NCBI RefSeq assembly: GCF_014640175.1
Contig: NZ_BMGL01000005.1
Location: 124,001 to 188,000 of the forward strand
Direction: 5' to 3'
Length of the DNA: 64,000 bases
From: Psychroflexus salis
GTDB taxonomy: Bacteria > Bacteroidota > Bacteroidia > Flavobacteriales > Flavobacteriaceae
Positions 7,872 through 15,108 of the stretch are shown here, in pieces. Under the pieces are notes generated by a model that was given only the letters and a program-made list of their open reading frames with translations, was not told the DNA's origin and did not search any database. The position numbers were made by a program, and so were the translations under genes. The first letter of the stretch is position 1, and every line of letters begins with the position of its first letter.

Positions 7872-8163
7872 GAGTTTCGTTTTTTAAAAGGAAAATAAAA
7901 AAAGCTTAAAATAAGGACTGGATGAAAAGAATTCTGTTTAGATGCTTTTGTAGGTGTTTTTACGTAGTAATACTTCTACAATCAATCATTTATAGTCTAA
8001 ACTATGAATTTTACTTTAAGTGTGTGCTATATATATGATGACCTAAAAATAACTGTAGAAATATGCTGCGCTTGATATAAAAATAAACGGGTATATTTAA
8101 TCAGATTATGCTTAAAATCTCTCTGAATCAGAATTTTAAGGAATGGCAGGTCAAAATTTAATT
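7872..8163. other. Gap between wza promoter and hisH
   Basis: About 290 bp with no gene, no hisA/hisF remnant recognisable by reading, and no clear terminator for hisH. Weak inverted repeats only. Confidence 0.5.
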
Positions 8164-8745
8164 TTAAAGTGCTAAGAAATTTTTTAGCAACTGCTCTCCT
8201 ACTTTTCCACTTTTTTCGGGATGAAATTGTACTCCGTAGAAATTATGTTTTTGTAAAGCTGAAGTGTAGTCTATTCCATAGTTGGTTGTAGCAATAGTAT
8301 GCTTATTTATGGGAACGTAATATGAATGTACCAAATACATATAATCTTTTTCCTTGATGTCTTTGCATATAGCTGATTTTAAATCGAATATTTGATTCCA
8401 AGCTATTTGTGGCACTTTTAATGCATTGCTGAATTTCTTTACTTCTGCATCAAAAATACCCAAACAATCGGTATTGCCTTCTTCTGAATACGTACACATG
8501 AGTTGCATGCCTAAACAAATGCCTAAAACCGGTTGTTGTAAACTGGGAATTAGCTTGTCTAATCCTGTTTTTTGTAATTGCTGCATTGCATAATTGGCTT
8601 CGCCTACTCCAGGAAAAATTACTCGATCAGCTTGCTGAATTTCTTCCCAATTAGACGAAAGCTTGGCTTCAACCCCTAAACGTTGAAATGCAAATTGAAT
8701 GCTTTTGATGTTGCCTACGCCGTAATTGATGATGATTAAATTCAT
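8164..8745 (-). CDS. hisH: Imidazole glycerol phosphate synthase glutaminase subunit
   Basis: A 193-residue class I glutamine amidotransferase that supplies ammonia to HisF in histidine synthesis. Catalytic Cys77 lies in GICLGMQLM, and the His/Glu pair in FYGVQFHPEKSG near residue 175. The length is standard for HisH. It is separated from hisB by 384 bp of low-complexity DNA, and hisA, hisF and hisI/E, which normally follow in this group, are not in the window. A HisH-like amidotransferase from a surface-sugar pathway is possible given the neighbouring capsule genes, but the sequence reads as the biosynthetic type. Confidence 0.9.
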   Translation of the reverse strand: MNLIIINYGVGNIKSIQFAFQRLGVEAKLSSNWEEIQQADRVIFPGVGEANYAMQQLQKTGLDKLIPSLQQPVLGICLGMQLMCTYSEEGNTDCLGIFDAEVKKFSNALKVPQIAWNQIFDLKSAICKDIKEKDYMYLVHSYYVPINKHTIATTNYGIDYTSALQKHNFYGVQFHPEKSGKVGEQLLKNFLAL

Positions 8746-9129
8746 TTTGGGATTTAGGATTTAGGATTGATGATTTTTGATTTAGGATTTTTGATTTAGG
8801 ATTTGATTTCGATACAATTTTAAAGTTTTTTTATTTGGAAAAGCTTTAAAACCAATCCATCTGACAATATCTTAATACAATTTTTTTTCAATATCGTGTA
8901 AAAAAATCATAGACACGTTATTTTAAGTTCGATATCTTCGACCAAAGCTCAGGATTAACTGAAGGCGAGAAGTGTTTCCATCTCGACTCCGCTCGATGCT
9001 CAAACCTATTGTAAAATTCAAAAAAAAAATCAAAAGTTCAAAAAATGATAGGATTAAAAGACTAAACTGACGAAAAAGAACAATTACATTATTTCTTAAT
9101 ACTTAATTCTAATATCTTCATTTTAAAAA
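8746..9129. other. Low-complexity spacer between hisB and hisH
   Basis: 384 bp without a gene. Positions 8750-8805 repeat the words GATTTAGGATT/GATTTTTGATT. A segment at 8938-9000 contains an imperfect inverted repeat with the TCTCGACTCCGCTCGATG motif resembling dispersed REP-like elements of flavobacteria. TAGGTTTG on the minus strand (9001-9008) matches the -7 consensus and could drive hisH, but it lies about 255 bp from the start. Confidence 0.6.
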
Positions 9130-10272
9130 CTACAGTATTCCTTTTGTGCTGGGTAAAATCATTTTTTCTGTGTTTCGTTTAGTTGCCATTTTAATGGTCT
9201 TGGCAAAGGCTTTAAAAATAGCTTCTATTTTGTGGTGTTCGTTAGCGCCGATGGCTTGTATATTTAGATTTGCTTTTGCGGCATCTGAAAAGGATTTAAA
9301 GAAATGCAAAAACATTTCAGTCGGCATTTTGCCAATCATTTCTCGTTTAAAATCGGCTTGCCATACCAACCAATTTCTTCCACCGAAATCGATGCTTACT
9401 TTGGCTTCACAATCATCCATGGGTAAACAAAATCCGTAGCGTTCTATTCCGAGTTTATCGCCTAAAGCTTCGTTAAAAACTTCTCCTAATACTATGGCCG
9501 TATCTTCTATGGTGTGGTGTTCATCTACTTCTAAATCGCCTTTAACCTGAATGTTTAAATCGACTTGACCATGTTTCGCGATTTGCGTTAACATATGATC
9601 AAAAAATGCAATTCCCGTTGAAATTTCACTTTTTCCACTTCCATCAAGGTTCAATTCGATGACTATTGAAGTTTCTGAAGTAATCCGTTTTATTTTTGAA
9701 ACGCGATTCCCAAACTTTAAAAAACGGTAAATCGCTTCCCAAGATTGGGTTTCTAAAGCAACAAAAGGGTTTAAATCTTCTGCTATTGATACTTCTTCGC
9801 TTCCTAAATCAGGATTTACGTTTAAAAAAATTGCTTTGGCTCCTAAGTTTTTGGCTAATTTTACATCGGTAATTCGATCGCCAATAACCAACGAATTGGC
9901 TAAATCGTATGCTTCTGAAAAATACTTGGTTAACAATCCCGTATTGGGTTTACGTGTCTCTGCGTTTTCTTCGGGAAAGGTTTTATCGATGAGTACCTCA
10001 GCAAATTGAACACCTTCATTTTTAAAACTACGTAAAATAAAATCGTGTACAGGCCAAAAATTCTCTTCTGGATGTGATTCCGTTCCTAAGCCATCTTGGT
10101 TGGTAATCATCACTAATTCGTAGTTTAATTCCCTTGCAATTTTACCCAAATAAAACAAGGCTTGTGGATAAAAATCGAGCTTTACAAAAGCATCGATTTG
10201 AAAATCGGCTGGCTCTTGAATTAAAGTACCATCCCGATCGATAAACAAAACTTTTTTTGGAAGTTGATTCAT
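9130..10272 (-). CDS. hisB: Bifunctional histidinol-phosphatase / imidazoleglycerol-phosphate dehydratase
   Basis: A 380-residue fusion. The N-terminal HAD phosphatase (about residues 1-165) has the nucleophile motif FIDRDGT (10-16) and the HAD motif [11 protein letters not shown]. The C-terminal IGP dehydratase (about 190-380) has the two metal-binding segments DEHHTIED and [14 protein letters not shown]. It catalyses steps 6 and 8 of histidine synthesis. It follows hisC with 5 bp between them, so it is within the operon. It is the last gene before the long gap to hisH. Confidence 0.95.
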
Positions 10273-10277
10273 GTAAT

Positions 10278-11324
10278 TTATTTTTGAGCATTTAAGTTCA
10301 GTAAAGCCTGAACTAACTTTATATTTTCTTTGGGTGTCCCGATACTAATTCGCAAACAATTTTCACAATGTAACTCGTTAGTTCGGTTGCGGACCACAAT
10401 TCCTTTTTCAATTAATTGATGGTAGCGTAAAATAGCATTATCTACTTTCATCAATAAAAAATTAGCTTCCGATGGAAATAGTTTTTCAACAAAAGAAATC
10501 TTTTTTAGTGCATTACGCAGTAATTCCCGTTCAGAAATTAACATTTCTACTTGATTCTTATAAGTTTCAGCTGAAGCTATTACTTCCATCGCTTTGGCTT
10601 GCGTTAACTGATTCACATTGTAAGGTGGTTTAATTTTATTGAGCAATTGAATGATTTCAGTTTGCGCAAAACCCATTCCTAAACGGATTCCTGCATGCGC
10701 AAATGCTTTTGAAAAGGTTTGTAAAACTACTAAATTTGGAAAATGATTCAACTCACTTACGAATGAAGCTTGTGTAGCAAAATCAATATAAGCTTCATCT
10801 AAAACTACCAATCCCTTGAAATTTTTTAAAATGAATTTAATGGCTTTGGTATTCATTACATTTCCACTCGGATTGTTAGGAGAACACAGAAAAATCAATT
10901 TTGTACGTGAGGTAATCGCTGCTAAAATCGCTTCGGTTTCTATCTGAAAATCTTTAGTTAAAGGAACTTCATTTAACTTAATCTCGTTTACTTCTGCCAA
11001 TACTTTATACATTCCGTAAGTTGGCGGAATGCTAATAACTTCGTCTTGTTTAGGTTCACAAAATGCACGAAAAAGCAGGTCTAAAACTTCATCGCTTCCG
11101 TTGCCTAAAATCATATTTTCTGCAGGAACACCTTTCAATTTTGCTAAAGCTATTTTTACTTTTGAAGCATGGGGGTCGGGATAGCGATTGTAACCCGAAT
11201 TAAACGGGTTTTCGTTCGCATCTTGAAAAATAAAATCCTGATGGCTTTCGGTAAATTCATCTCTGGCAGATGAATATGGCTTCATTTGAAGCACATTTTT
11301 ACGGGCTAATTCACTTAATTTCAT
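10278..11324 (-). CDS. hisC: Histidinol-phosphate aminotransferase
   Basis: A class I/II PLP-dependent aminotransferase of about 348 residues, converting imidazole-acetol phosphate to histidinol phosphate. The PLP-binding Lys lies in [14 protein letters not shown], and the motifs SPNNPSGN and DEAYIDF are present. The open frame reaches a TTG at 11330, but the ATG two codons later (11324) is the better start. It sits immediately after the hisD stop, so translation is likely coupled. Confidence 0.95.
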
Positions 11325-11331
11325 AACCAAG

Positions 11332-12618
11332 CTATTTTAATGATTCGATTCGTAAGCTCATGGCATTTTTGTGCGCATCCAATCCTTCGGCTTCAGCCAT
11401 CAATTCTACGGCCTTTCCTATATAATGAACACCTTCTGGCGAAATCTCTTGAAAAGTAATGCTTTTGGTAAACGCATCTAAATTTACTCCGCTGTATTGT
11501 TTGGCGTAGCCGTTAGTAGGTAAAGTATGATTGGTTCCTGAAGCGTAATCACCTGCACTTTCTGGGGTGTAATTTCCTATAAAAACGGAACCTGCGTTTT
11601 CAATATTTTCAATAAAAAAATCATTATCATTTGTACAGACTATAAAATGTTCGGGAGCGTATTCATTGATTAAATTCAATGCGTCTTCCTTATTTTCTAA
11701 GAGAATAATTTTAGAATTTTTAATAGCCTTTGTTGCGATTTCTTTTCGAGGTAATTCATTTAATTGTCTAATAATTTCCGTCTGAACTTCACCTACTAAA
11801 TTAGCTGAAGTGCTTACTAAAATTACTTGCGAATCGGCTCCATGTTCGGCTTGACTTAATAAATCCGAAGCGACAAATGCAGGTTTAGCCGATTCGTCTG
11901 CCATAACTAATAATTCTGATGGTCCAGCCGGCATATCGATACTCACATTGTATTGGGTAGCCAGTTGTTTGGCCACGGTTACATATTGATTACCCGGTCC
12001 AAAAATTTTAAAAACCTTAGGAATGCTTGCCGTTCCAAATGTCATTGCTCCAATAGCCTGAATTCCTCCTGCCTTGCATATTTTTGTAATTCCGCATAAC
12101 TGAGCTGTGTATAAAATAGCTGGATGAATTTTTCCTTCTTTATCGGGTGGTGTGCACAACACGATTTCTTTACAACCAGCTATTTTGGCTGGTAAAGCCA
12201 GCATTAAGACTGTTGAAAAAAGCGGAGCGCTACCACCAGGAATATACAAGCCAACTTTTTGGATCGGTCTTTTTTCTTGCCAGCATTTTACGCCAGGTTG
12301 TGTCTCTACTACTACCCGACTGGTTTTTTGGGCTGCATGAAAAGTTTCTATATTATGTTTAGCTAGTTGAATGGCTTCTTTTAAATCGGAAGTTATAAGT
12401 TGTTCAGCTTCTTGAACTTCTTCATTCGAAACCAGCAAATGATCTACTTCAACGCCATCGAACAAGCGTGTATATTTACTTACCGCTTCATCGCCTTGTT
12501 GAATTACTTCAGCAAAAATTTGTTCAACTGTTGCTTCAATATCTTTTAATTCTTGGGTAGGTCTTTTTAAAATAGTTTCCCATTCTTGTGGTGATGGATT
12601 TGTAATTAATTGCATCAT
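11332..12618 (-). CDS. hisD: Histidinol dehydrogenase
   Basis: About 428 residues; oxidises histidinol to histidine in two NAD-dependent steps. Family motifs visible include YIPGGSAPLFSTVLM, the GPGNQYV segment, the Zn/His segment SQAEHGADSQ, and the C-terminal SGTNHTLPTNGYA. The frame extends upstream to 12645 inside hisG. The ATG at 12616-12618 overlaps the hisG stop as TAATG and is preferred (a second ATG follows directly at 12613-12615). Confidence 0.95.
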   Translation of the reverse strand: MMQLITNPSPQEWETILKRPTQELKDIEATVEQIFAEVIQQGDEAVSKYTRLFDGVEVDHLLVSNEEVQEAEQLITSDLKEAIQLAKHNIETFHAAQKTSRVVVETQPGVKCWQEKRPIQKVGLYIPGGSAPLFSTVLMLALPAKIAGCKEIVLCTPPDKEGKIHPAILYTAQLCGITKICKAGGIQAIGAMTFGTASIPKVFKIFGPGNQYVTVAKQLATQYNVSIDMPAGPSELLVMADESAKPAFVASDLLSQAEHGADSQVILVSTSANLVGEVQTEIIRQLNELPRKEIATKAIKNSKIILLENKEDALNLINEYAPEHFIVCTNDNDFFIENIENAGSVFIGNYTPESAGDYASGTNHTLPTNGYAKQYSGVNLDAFTKSITFQEISPEGVHYIGKAVELMAEAEGLDAHKNAMSLRIESLK

Positions 12619-13472
12619 TAGATTACCATTTTTTCGATTGGACAAACCAAAATTCCTTCAGCTCCCGCTAGTTTTAGCTCGTCTATAATTTCCCAAAATT
12701 TTTCTTGTTGAATTACGGTGTGCAAAGAACTCCAGCCTTCTTTAGCTAACGGCAGTAAAGTGGGGCTTTTCATACCGGGTAAAATAGAAATAATTTGGTC
12801 GATTTTGTTGTTGGGTGCATTCAGCAACACATATTTAGACTCTTTAGCTTTTAAAACCGTTTGAATTCGGAATTGCAGCTTAGCCAATAGCTCTGCTTTC
12901 TCATTTGATAAATTAGGTGATGTAGCTAATACCGCTTCACTTTTTAAAATAATTTCAGTTTCCTTTAAATTGTTTTTAAAAAGCGTGCTTCCACTAGAAA
13001 CAATGTCGCAAATGGCATCGGCTAATCCAATATTTGGAGCAATTTCTACCGAACCACTAATTTTATGTAGTTCAGCTTCAACTTGGTGTTTTTTAAGAAA
13101 CTTTTGAACCGTATTGGGATACGAAGTAGCAATTTTTTTACCTTGTAAATCATCAACTGAATGGTAGAATTCATTTTTAGGTATTGCAATAGAAACTCGA
13201 CATTTGGAAAAGCCTAATCGTTCGACAATAGATAAATCTTCTCCTTTTTCGTATAATAAATTCTCGCCTATAATCGCTAAATCTGCAACGCCATCTCTTA
13301 GGTATTGTGGAATGTCTCCATTTCTAAGAAAAAGTACTTCCATAGGAAAATTAGTAGCTGAAACTTTTAGTTGATCACGACCATTATCGATGTAAATTCC
13401 GCAATCTTTCAATAATTTAAGCGATTGTTCGTTTAATCTACCCGATTTTTGAATTGCTATTTTTAATTTCAT
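12618..13472 (-). CDS. hisG: ATP phosphoribosyltransferase, long form
   Basis: A 284-residue long-form HisG: first and feedback-inhibited enzyme of histidine synthesis. The catalytic domain starts LKIAIQKSGRLNEQSLKLLKDCGI and includes the PRPP-binding stretch DAICDIVSSGSTLF (about residues 151-164). The C-terminal regulatory domain (about 210-284) ends GAEGILVCPIEKMVI. It is the first structural gene of the his operon and starts only about 22 bp after a strong intrinsic terminator, indicating transcription attenuation. Confidence 0.95.
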   Translation of the reverse strand: MKLKIAIQKSGRLNEQSLKLLKDCGIYIDNGRDQLKVSATNFPMEVLFLRNGDIPQYLRDGVADLAIIGENLLYEKGEDLSIVERLGFSKCRVSIAIPKNEFYHSVDDLQGKKIATSYPNTVQKFLKKHQVEAELHKISGSVEIAPNIGLADAICDIVSSGSTLFKNNLKETEIILKSEAVLATSPNLSNEKAELLAKLQFRIQTVLKAKESKYVLLNAPNNKIDQIISILPGMKSPTLLPLAKEGWSSLHTVIQQEKFWEIIDELKLAGAEGILVCPIEKMVI

Positions 13473-13493
13473 TTATATGTAATTATAAGTTTA

Positions 13494-13526
13494 TAAAAAA
13501 ACCCGTTTGATAAGCTCAAACGGGTT
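13494..13526 (-). terminator. Intrinsic terminator in the his leader (attenuator)
   Basis: On the minus strand an 11-bp perfect stem (arms 13526-13516 and 13510-13500) with a 5-nt loop is followed by a run of seven T (13500-13494). It points toward hisG and ends about 21 bp before its start codon. Such a position makes sense only if termination is conditional. Confidence 0.9.
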
Positions 13527-13554
13527 TTGAATTTTATTTATGATGTAGCACCAA

Positions 13555-13617
13555 TCATTTATTCAACGCCGTTTTGAGCGATGTGTGAAAATGATGTATG
13601 TGCCAAAATTTCTTCAT
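13555..13617 (-). CDS. hisL: His leader peptide, 20 residues
   Basis: A 20-codon frame reading MKKFWHIHHFHTSL and ending KTALNK, with His at positions 6, 8, 9 and 11. It lies 82 bp upstream of hisG and just before the terminator hairpin. Four His in six residues is far beyond chance for such a short frame and is the hallmark of an attenuator leader. The likely -7 promoter element ends only 8 bp upstream of the ATG, so the transcript may start within a few bases of the start codon. Confidence 0.85.
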   Translation of the reverse strand: MKKFWHIHHFHTSLKTALNK

Positions 13618-13624
13618 TATCCTA

Positions 13625-13654
13625 CAAAATTAAACCTTAAATTGAATATGCCAA
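13625..13654 (-). promoter_or_regulatory. his operon promoter (-33/-7)
   Basis: TAATTTTG (13632-13625, minus strand) matches TAnnTTTG. TTGG at 13654-13651 lies 18 bp upstream, as expected for the -33 element. The predicted transcription start is around 13618-13622, almost at the leader ATG (13617). Confidence 0.65.
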
Positions 13655-13862
13655 GTTTACTAACAATTATTTAAGTAAGTTGGAAGGTTTTTAGCTAGTG
13701 GTAGTTGGTAGTTAATAGTTGGTGGTTTTTCTATTTATATATGGGTTATTGTCAAGATCTTGATACATTTTTTTGAAGTTACTTGAATAAATAAGAAATT
13801 GATCTCTTTTAAATATTTTAAAATTAGATGAATTGGCTATTGTTATGCTTTAAACTTAATCC
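13655..13862. other. Spacer between the divergent his and marC promoters
   Basis: No gene. Positions 13690-13733 contain a TAGTTGGTAGTTAATAGTTGG-like low-complexity array, the same word family as at 560-640. The remainder is AT-rich. Confidence 0.5.
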
Positions 13863-13870
13863 TATTTTTG
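13863..13870 (+). promoter_or_regulatory. -7 promoter element of marC
   Basis: TATTTTTG, a full match to TAnnTTTG, 20 bp before the marC ATG; a TTG at 13843-13845 lies 17 bp upstream. Confidence 0.55.
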
Positions 13871-13890
13871 CAAGCTTAATTTTTTGAAAA

Positions 13891-14523
13891 ATGACAGATT
13901 ACATCACTTTTGGAATTTTGTGTTTCACTACTTTTTTTACCATTATTAATCCGCTAGGAGTTATGCCTATTTTTATGACTATGACGCGAGAAATGGAAAA
14001 AGAAGACCGAAACTTAACAGCTAAAAAGGCTATTTTAGCATCTTTTATTACTTTAGTGGTCTTTGCCTTTTCAGGACAAATATTGTTTAATTTTTTCGGG
14101 ATTTCTGTAAATAGTTTCCGTGTTGTTGGTGGAATTATCTTCTTTTTAATGGGTATGGATATGCTGCAAGCCCGATTAGGTACAGTAAAAGTAAAACCCG
14201 AAGAAATTAAAGCCTACGTTTCCGATATTTCAATTACACCACTTGCTATTCCTATGATTACTGGTCCTGGTGCCATTACCAATGCTATTGTTTTAATGGA
14301 AGATGCTAAAGAGATCGAGTTTAAGTTGGTTTTATTGGTTGCCATTTTAATTGTATTTGCTATTACGCTAGTAATTTTGCTTAGTGCAACTAAAATTATC
14401 AAGCTATTAGGTACAACTGGTAATAATGTATTGATGCGCTTAATGGGCTTAATTATTATGGTAATTGCTATTGAATTCTTTTTGAGTGGTTTCAAGCCGA
14501 TTATTCAAGACATTTTGGCTTAA
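13891..14523 (+). CDS. MarC family integral membrane protein
   Basis: A 210-residue membrane protein with six hydrophobic segments. It has the family signatures FFTIINPLGVMPIFMTMT near the N-terminus and PLAIPMITGPGAITNAIVL at about residues 115-133. The physiological role of MarC/UPF0056 proteins is unresolved; despite the name they are not established antibiotic-resistance factors. It appears monocistronic, divergent from the his operon, with its own -7 element. Confidence 0.9.
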   Translation: MTDYITFGILCFTTFFTIINPLGVMPIFMTMTREMEKEDRNLTAKKAILASFITLVVFAFSGQILFNFFGISVNSFRVVGGIIFFLMGMDMLQARLGTVKVKPEEIKAYVSDISITPLAIPMITGPGAITNAIVLMEDAKEIEFKLVLLVAILIVFAITLVILLSATKIIKLLGTTGNNVLMRLMGLIIMVIAIEFFLSGFKPIIQDILA

Positions 14524-14712
14524 ACAGTTTATGCTTATGTAGTTTATATTTCGACTAGACTTGCTATGCTAGAATCTTAAAATATGTTTGTTATATCTTG
14601 AGATTAGTACGGATTAATAGAGCCTATTTATTTAGAGCTCTAAACATTTACATTATTTAATTTTTAACTAAATATATAGGTTTACAAAAATGTTGATGTT
14701 TAATTTGCAGTT

Positions 14713-15108
14713 ATGAAAAATAGAGATGAATATTTGCGATCAATCAGACCTGAATTGAAGAAAGCAAAAGTAAAACCGGACACTTTAGCGCACGAAGCTT
14801 TTCAAAATAATACGCTACGACCAATTGCTAAATTTCAAAACGATTTGTTAGCTGAAGTTTTTAAGGTTTACATCAAGTACCGTAAAAATAAATTTTACGG
14901 TTTAAATTTAGAAAACAAACAAACTTATATAGAAGATGCTGTAAAAAAAGATGCTAAGTTAAGAAGACAATTACAAGGGGTTTTTATTGGTCTTTTTACA
15001 ATAGAAGAGTATGAAGTATATTCATCGGACTACAAAGCTTATAATAAACGTATTAACAATCTGTGTATTGAACGTTTAAAGAGTCAATTGCAATTGTTTG
15101 AAGCATAA
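14713..15108 (+). CDS. Conserved flavobacterial protein of unknown function
   Basis: A 131-residue soluble protein (MKNRDEYLRSIRPEL...), predicted mainly helical, with a TLRPIAKFQNDLL segment at about residues 31-43 and no signal peptide or membrane span. It resembles a short family conserved in Flavobacteriia that is often labelled 'glyoxalase'; I see no glyoxalase metal-binding pattern to justify that. A weak -7-like element (TTAATTTG) lies just upstream. It converges on the TPR gene. Confidence 0.75.
   Translation: MKNRDEYLRSIRPELKKAKVKPDTLAHEAFQNNTLRPIAKFQNDLLAEVFKVYIKYRKNKFYGLNLENKQTYIEDAVKKDAKLRRQLQGVFIGLFTIEEYEVYSSDYKAYNKRINNLCIERLKSQLQLFEA

Follow-up and report, generated by a model that had tools for sequence, protein, structure and literature searches.

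The hisG gene of Psychroflexus salis is preceded by an element that, judged from sequence and comparison, very probably works as a ribosome-mediated (classical) transcription attenuator of the hisGDCB(H) operon. We analyzed this element within a window of 64,000 nucleotides, the whole stretch of DNA under study, and followed it through hisG loci of relatives and of the wider class Bacteroidia. The element combines a short reading frame rich in His codons, an intrinsic terminator, and an antiterminator that shares sequence with the terminator, and each of these parts recurs in relatives.

The element lies in a divergent intergenic region, with marC (13891-14523, plus strand) on one side and hisG (13472-12618, minus strand) on the other, and is read on the minus strand. 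The leader peptide gene, MKKFWHIHHFHTSLKTALNK (13617-13555, minus strand, stop included), was read directly and translated; it is a frame of 20 codons running from ATG to a TGA at 13557-13555. His occupies codons 6 (CAC), 8 (CAT), 9 (CAT), and 11 (CAC), all within a regulatory stretch of codons 6 to 11 (13602-13585). These four His codons are not consecutive, and they give the leader the short frame rich in cognate codons that is a feature of classical attenuators. A sequence-only reading had placed both the frame and its His codons correctly. The first gene of the putatively controlled operon is hisG, encoding ATP phosphoribosyltransferase (Pfam HisG and HisG_C). The downstream genes presumed to be under the same control (8164-12645, minus strand) were assigned from open reading frames (ORFs) and Pfam matches: hisD, histidinol dehydrogenase (12645-11332); hisC, aminotransferase (11330-10278); hisB, IGP dehydratase with a HAD domain (10272-9130); and hisH, glutamine amidotransferase (8745-8164). 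Gene order and strand suggest that hisG to hisH form one transcript. The operon is otherwise tightly packed, and a 384-bp gap between hisB and hisH (8746-9129) holds no listed ORF of at least 60 amino acids.

Between the leader gene and hisG lies an intrinsic terminator (13528-13495, minus strand) with a 13-pair stem (13528-13498) and a run of seven T (13501-13495), recognized by reading, folding, relatives, and covariation. The earlier description of a strong terminator ending 21 bp before hisG is borne out, its end point of 13494 lying 21 bp 5' of the hisG ATG (13472). As had been proposed for codons 13 to 17 and the 5' half of the terminator, GCTCAAAACGG (13579-13569), which begins with the third base of codon 13 and ends with the first of codon 17, is complementary to CCGTTTGAGC (13523-13514) apart from a single bulged A. 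The former is the core of segment 2 (13579-13561, minus strand), the 5' strand of an antiterminator predicted to pair with 13532-13514. This 3' strand overlaps the terminator 5' arm (segment 3), and because the 2:3 and 3:4 helices have 13523-13514 in common, antiterminator and terminator are mutually exclusive. The leader folds at -34.7 kcal/mol against a mean of -17.8 kcal/mol for 200 dinucleotide shuffles, none of which was as good (z -5.6), and an RNAduplex computation for the leader after the first His codon against the terminator 5' arm gave -16.4 kcal/mol (z -5.1), a value equaled by 0 of 100 shuffles. A simple terminator scan of 8000-15000 found 5 terminator-like sites against a shuffle mean of 4.8, and it listed the hisG-leader hairpin on the plus strand only. 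Since the hairpin was listed on that strand only and the sites did not exceed those in shuffles, the scan alone would miss the terminator; its reality is settled by the relatives.

Three sets of loci were compared. The first came from 198 related genomes, 131 of which have a HisG match; 130 of the 133 HisG places were examined, leaving out two partial places of genome G135 and one of G176; locus L039 was dropped as too short. The class set drew on 295 genomes across the class, 127 of them with a HisG match, and 103 loci were examined; four of these (L294 and L305-L307) failed to align and were placed by coordinates, which gave a leader in L294 and none in L305-L307. A named set comprised 80 loci from a genome collection, the nearest being that of Psychroflexus planctonicus, whose HisG is 91% identical. 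Four loci are present in two sets (L002/L131, L007/L159, L010/L163, and L100/L221). A leader was counted when an ATG frame of 8 to 45 codons, at most 300 nt 5' of hisG, had at least 3 His in 6 codons, and a terminator when leader and hisG were separated by a hairpin that has a T tail and folds at -8 kcal/mol or lower. The terminator criterion overlooks weak hairpins, such as the short hairpin and T run visible by eye in L272, and "none" below means none by this criterion.

Of the 308 loci, 276 have a His-rich leader before hisG (relatives, 113/129; named, 80/80; class, 83/99), a figure that becomes 272 of 303 once repeated loci are removed. The same criterion was satisfied on the opposite strand at 1 of 308 loci and in 61 of 6,160 shuffles, and the equivalent test for other residues before hisG gave Trp at 1, Cys at 1, and Tyr at 4 of the 308 loci. 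A terminator stands between leader and hisG in 263 of the 276 (112/113, 80/80, and 71/83 in the three sets), compared with 7 of 238 control windows taken from within the operon. By these comparisons, the arrangement of leader and terminator is not due to chance. Measured from the first His codon, the segment complementary to the 5' arm begins at a median of 24, 22, and 27 nt in the three sets. Picking segment 2 as the best duplex with the arm favors the counts of pairing; where the segment lies relative to the His codons did not enter into the choice. The duplex of segment 2 with arm 3 averages -13.8 kcal/mol against -7.3 kcal/mol for shuffles and is better than all 50 shuffles in 163 of 263 loci.

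Covariation was assessed in an alignment, A1, of 94 nonredundant relatives selected because their arm resembles CCGTTTGAG. Pairing is kept in 92.2% of the cells of the 2:3 helix and in 98.7% of those of the 3:4 helix, and sliding the partner by 1 to 3 columns lowers pairing to at most 49.2% and 54.4%, respectively. Covariation scores for both helices exceed those of all 500 shuffles. At one position where arm 3 has C instead of U (14 sequences), G stands in both segment 2 and arm 4 in 13 of the 14. The number of pairs changed on both sides in A1 is not above that in shuffles (60 and 71 of 500 shuffles reach it), and the case for covariation thus rests on the scores, the slides, and replacement between families. 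Most other families have a different arm, often GGCTTACC or GGCTTGCC, and their leaders then have the complementary GGTAGGC, GGTAAGC, or GGTGAGCC. In the class set, the duplex reaches a z of -2 or lower in 52 of 71 loci, and a few loci (for example, L273, L274, and L291) have no good duplex. An arm-swap control, in which 108 of 236 native pairs were better than 95% of swaps and 95 of 236 were better than all 30 shuffles, is a weak test because the arms are alike between loci. The comparison with relatives that the sequence-only reading had called for therefore came out in favor of attenuation: the frame is present in 276 of 308 loci, both stems are kept, compensatory changes occur, and matching arms are found elsewhere.

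In the mechanism that we propose, RNA polymerase would start near 13620 and a ribosome would begin the leader peptide almost at the 5' end of the RNA. When charged His-tRNA is scarce, the ribosome would stall at His codon 6, 8, or 9, leaving segment 2 free to pair with 13532-13514 once the latter has emerged; the terminator would then form too late, and polymerase would read into hisG. When His-tRNA is plentiful, the ribosome would reach the stop codon and cover most of segment 2, and the 3:4 hairpin would end transcription near 13495. We modeled these states on the assumption that the ribosome shields 16 nt downstream of the P-site codon, as in E. coli. When polymerase has just cleared arm 3, a ribosome placed at any of codons 6, 8, and 9 is predicted to leave 13579-13561 paired with 13532-13514 (core P = 1.0). 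A ribosome at codon 11 masks part of segment 2 and leaves a shorter antiterminator (-11.7 versus -18.0 kcal/mol), and one at the stop codon leaves no antiterminator and a terminator free to form. Across the 263 loci, the predicted 2:3 pairing is above one half in 253 when the first His codon occupies the A site and in none when the ribosome is at the stop codon; in the latter state, at least half of segment 2 is covered in 251. Whichever ribosome state was computed, the full leader of the window folds stably into the terminator, and antitermination must therefore be kinetic. Even without a ribosome, the 2:3 helix forms in the window (P 0.98), as it does in 110 of the 263 loci, and for this reason a textbook 1:2 protector is not evident in the window. 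The earlier statement that the element matches textbook his attenuation thus stands for the frame, the terminator, the exclusive antiterminator, and the register; the protector helix does not show clearly in the window folding.

The leader appears to start very close to the 5' end of its transcript. Direct reading finds a promoter box, TAATTTTG (13632-13625, minus strand), that corresponds to the consensus TAnnTTTG of the Bacteroidota primary sigma factor, with a predicted transcription start near 13620. A TTG at 13654-13652 (minus strand) occupies the position of a -33 element, covering -34 to -32 relative to the predicted start, and the promoter may extend to about 13654, beyond 13632, where the earlier reading had ended the element. 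This TTG is weak as a promoter part because the TTTG motif near -33, described for Bacteroides fragilis, was not identified in Flavobacterium johnsoniae (PMC7366714). Of the 276 leaders, 177 have an exact TAnnTTTG no more than 70 nt from their ATG, a match seen in 59 of 1,375 random windows; with one mismatch allowed, the box ends 0 to 27 nt 5' of the ATG in 257 of the 276. The distance from box to ATG is bimodal, being 4 to 9 nt in 110 leaders and 15 to 22 nt in 118 (144 and 153 of 2,760 random windows, respectively). The gap is 7 in the window and 5 to 7 in the same-genus loci that pass the leader criterion (n = 15). In Flavobacterium psychrophilum, the promoter box is placed at -12 to -5 in the main text of PMC9723704, and this spacing together with a gap of 7 gives the predicted +1 at 13620 and a predicted 5' untranslated region (UTR) of 3 nt. 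For F. psychrophilum, the same text reports that 5' UTRs have a median length of 24 nt and that 5.5% of mRNAs are leaderless, and it states that Shine-Dalgarno sites are absent in flavobacteria (PMC9723704). Separately, a pattern search for HHH frames behind TTTG was abandoned as too unspecific, with 59 of 60 genomes matched many times and 5 places in P. salis against 10 in the reversed control.

Within the class sample, a leader was found by criterion in 32 of 42 families and a leader with terminator in 29 of 42, a spread that suggests old ancestry within the class more than recent transfer from enterics. An independent origin, as put forward from sequence alone, and deep shared ancestry would both accord with these data. 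Seven loci of one family (f16; L119-L125) had no leader by criterion; by their size, of about 0.6 Mb, these genomes look like those of reduced endosymbionts. A few loci negative by criterion have a His-rich frame under looser rules, among them L223, with a TTG start, and L294, positioned manually, with an uninterrupted run of six His. For 13 leaders the criterion found no terminator, including those at all five loci of family f55, two of three in f17, two of five in f30, and the single locus of f46. The f55 leaders (L300-L304) are His rich, and four of them (L300, L302, L303, and L304) share a related stretch, GTATG followed by TTTCTACG or a near form, 3' of the leader stop. In f17 and f30, the peptides of L264, L270, L276, and L277 end in HHSS, no terminator was found before hisG, and a hairpin lies over the stop codon, with CCTCC or CCTCTT paired with GGAGG.

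Leaders of this kind, kept in some families with no terminator found, are what one would expect if the His leader worked chiefly by a different route, for example Rho-dependent termination or translational coupling to hisG, with the intrinsic terminator secondary. We consider this very unlikely for the window, where the terminator is strong, conserved, and overlapped by the antiterminator, and where the 82 nt between the end of the leader and hisG are a long distance for simple translational coupling. Classical attenuation remains our reading of the window. For the class as a whole, we tentatively raise the possibility, which we hold to be somewhat less probable than its opposite, of an ancient Bacteroidia his attenuator to which the window element would belong: many members would be near-leaderless (predicted 5' UTR of 0 to 5 nt), with the ribosome engaging before polymerase reaches the terminator and without a pause hairpin, and in some families a terminator-less His leader would have a different, undescribed output.

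A T-box, a riboswitch, or a protein-binding attenuator could in principle control the operon, the His-rich frame being incidental. A permissive Rfam scan of 13400-13760 returned 15 matches, all below cut-off, among them PyrR (27 bits; cut-off, 54) and Trp_leader (24.2 bits; cut-off, 41) over the terminator region. These permissive matches align to the terminator, no Rfam cut-off is reached in the region, the His frame persists in 276 of 308 loci, and its register with segment 2 is preserved, so that control of this type seems scarcely credible. At the gathering cut-off, Rfam found one tRNA in the whole window and nothing at the hisG leader; the His_leader model (RF00514; gathering cut-off, 49 bits) gave no match in 13400-13760 even at E values up to 10. 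Nor did His_leader pass its cut-off in any of 198 class genomes, a result that supports the suggestion, made from sequence alone, of an under-annotated class in Bacteroidota. In a control set of 14 genomes, the model matched E. coli and Corynebacterium glutamicum, one of these two over cut-off. Sub-threshold His_leader matches in 27 of the 198 genomes were treated as chance: 14 of these genomes have a HisG place, and none of the matches lies there, and the other 13 have no listed HisG match. The hairpin might instead be just the terminator of a neighboring gene, without regulatory role; in favor of this are a stem close to a palindrome, with A and T runs, and the listing of the hairpin on the plus strand by the simple scan. 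This reading is hardly plausible. The nearest upstream gene, marC, is on the plus strand and points away, leaving no annotated minus-strand gene that ends at the hairpin. In 263 of 276 loci, moreover, the hairpin keeps to the interval that separates the leader from hisG, and it covaries with a segment belonging to the leader frame.

Elsewhere in the P. salis genome, the his pathway is split over two loci. A second cluster on another contig (contig C3; L355:1486-3666) contains hisA-hisF (PF00977) and a third ORF, presumably hisI, and no His leader was found upstream of it. Two further leaders were noted in the genome. A Trp-rich leader, MKILNNNWWWSKLRLRS, with a terminator hairpin read by eye lies upstream of a trpE-like gene (PF00425; contig C9, L362:778-831); TATATTTG stands five bases 5' of its ATG, making it another near-leaderless leader. 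A Phe- and Tyr-rich leader, MLNKVYFWNYFYFAFSSETGEF, again with a terminator hairpin seen by eye, precedes the prephenate dehydratase gene pheA (PF00800; contig C16, L365:1362-1430). The occurrence of these two leaders in the same genome speaks in favor of attenuation at hisG. The homoserine dehydrogenase domain PF00742 had no match in the whole P. salis genome and matched in all 14 control genomes, and P. salis is possibly a Thr/Met auxotroph; PF00682 had two matches.

Our comparisons support the view that histidine synthesis in much of the class Bacteroidia is usually controlled by classical attenuation. Annotation could name these His leaders, which Rfam His_leader misses. The element also offers a system for studying transcription-translation coupling with a leader start at the very 5' end and Shine-Dalgarno sites absent. 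What merits following is the near-leaderless start, along with those leaders in which no terminator was detected. In the open-access literature searched, outside which most subscription papers lie, we found no account of the class-wide spread, the covariation, or the terminator-less His leaders. A comparative study of attenuation in bacteria reportedly published by Lopatovskaya et al. in 2010 may already list Bacteroidetes his leaders.

The window element belongs to a kind already reported for a relative, F. psychrophilum, and is less novel than the sequence-only reading supposed (PMC9723704). That 2021 study describes a structured, transcribed 5' element at hisG, present in other Flavobacteriaceae genera and without an Rfam hit, which resembles that of the window in all these respects save that transcription is only predicted here (PMC9723704). 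Leader-peptide attenuation of amino acid operons is reported there for F. psychrophilum, with pheA also named; the main-text passages considered here do not outright call the hisG element a leader-peptide attenuator and do not give its leader peptide, pairing, covariation, or occurrence outside the family (PMC9723704).

More distant systems supply both likenesses and differences. A near-leaderless leader has a precedent in the ilvBNC attenuator of C. glutamicum, but that system responds to branched-chain amino acids and belongs to the Actinobacteria. Its leader peptide is said, in the title of a paper by Morbach et al. from 2000, to be formed without a ribosome binding site. The his leader of E. 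coli has seven consecutive His codons, and the enteric attenuator forms an A to F series of helices. The window element, in contrast, has four interrupted His codons, a single antiterminator helix, a predicted 5' UTR of 3 nt, and no match to the Rfam model. With the his attenuator of E. coli and Salmonella (RF00514) it shares a His-rich peptide, an exclusive antiterminator and terminator, and a place before hisG (PMC9413887). Attenuators of his genes in the Bacillus cereus group, Peptostreptococcaceae, and Erysipelotrichales belong to another phylum, Firmicutes, and the consulted text of PMC9413887 does not contain "Bacteroid"; having His-codon leader peptides, a terminator, and an antiterminator before his genes, all predicted by comparison, they are by that description like the attenuator of the window (PMC9413887).
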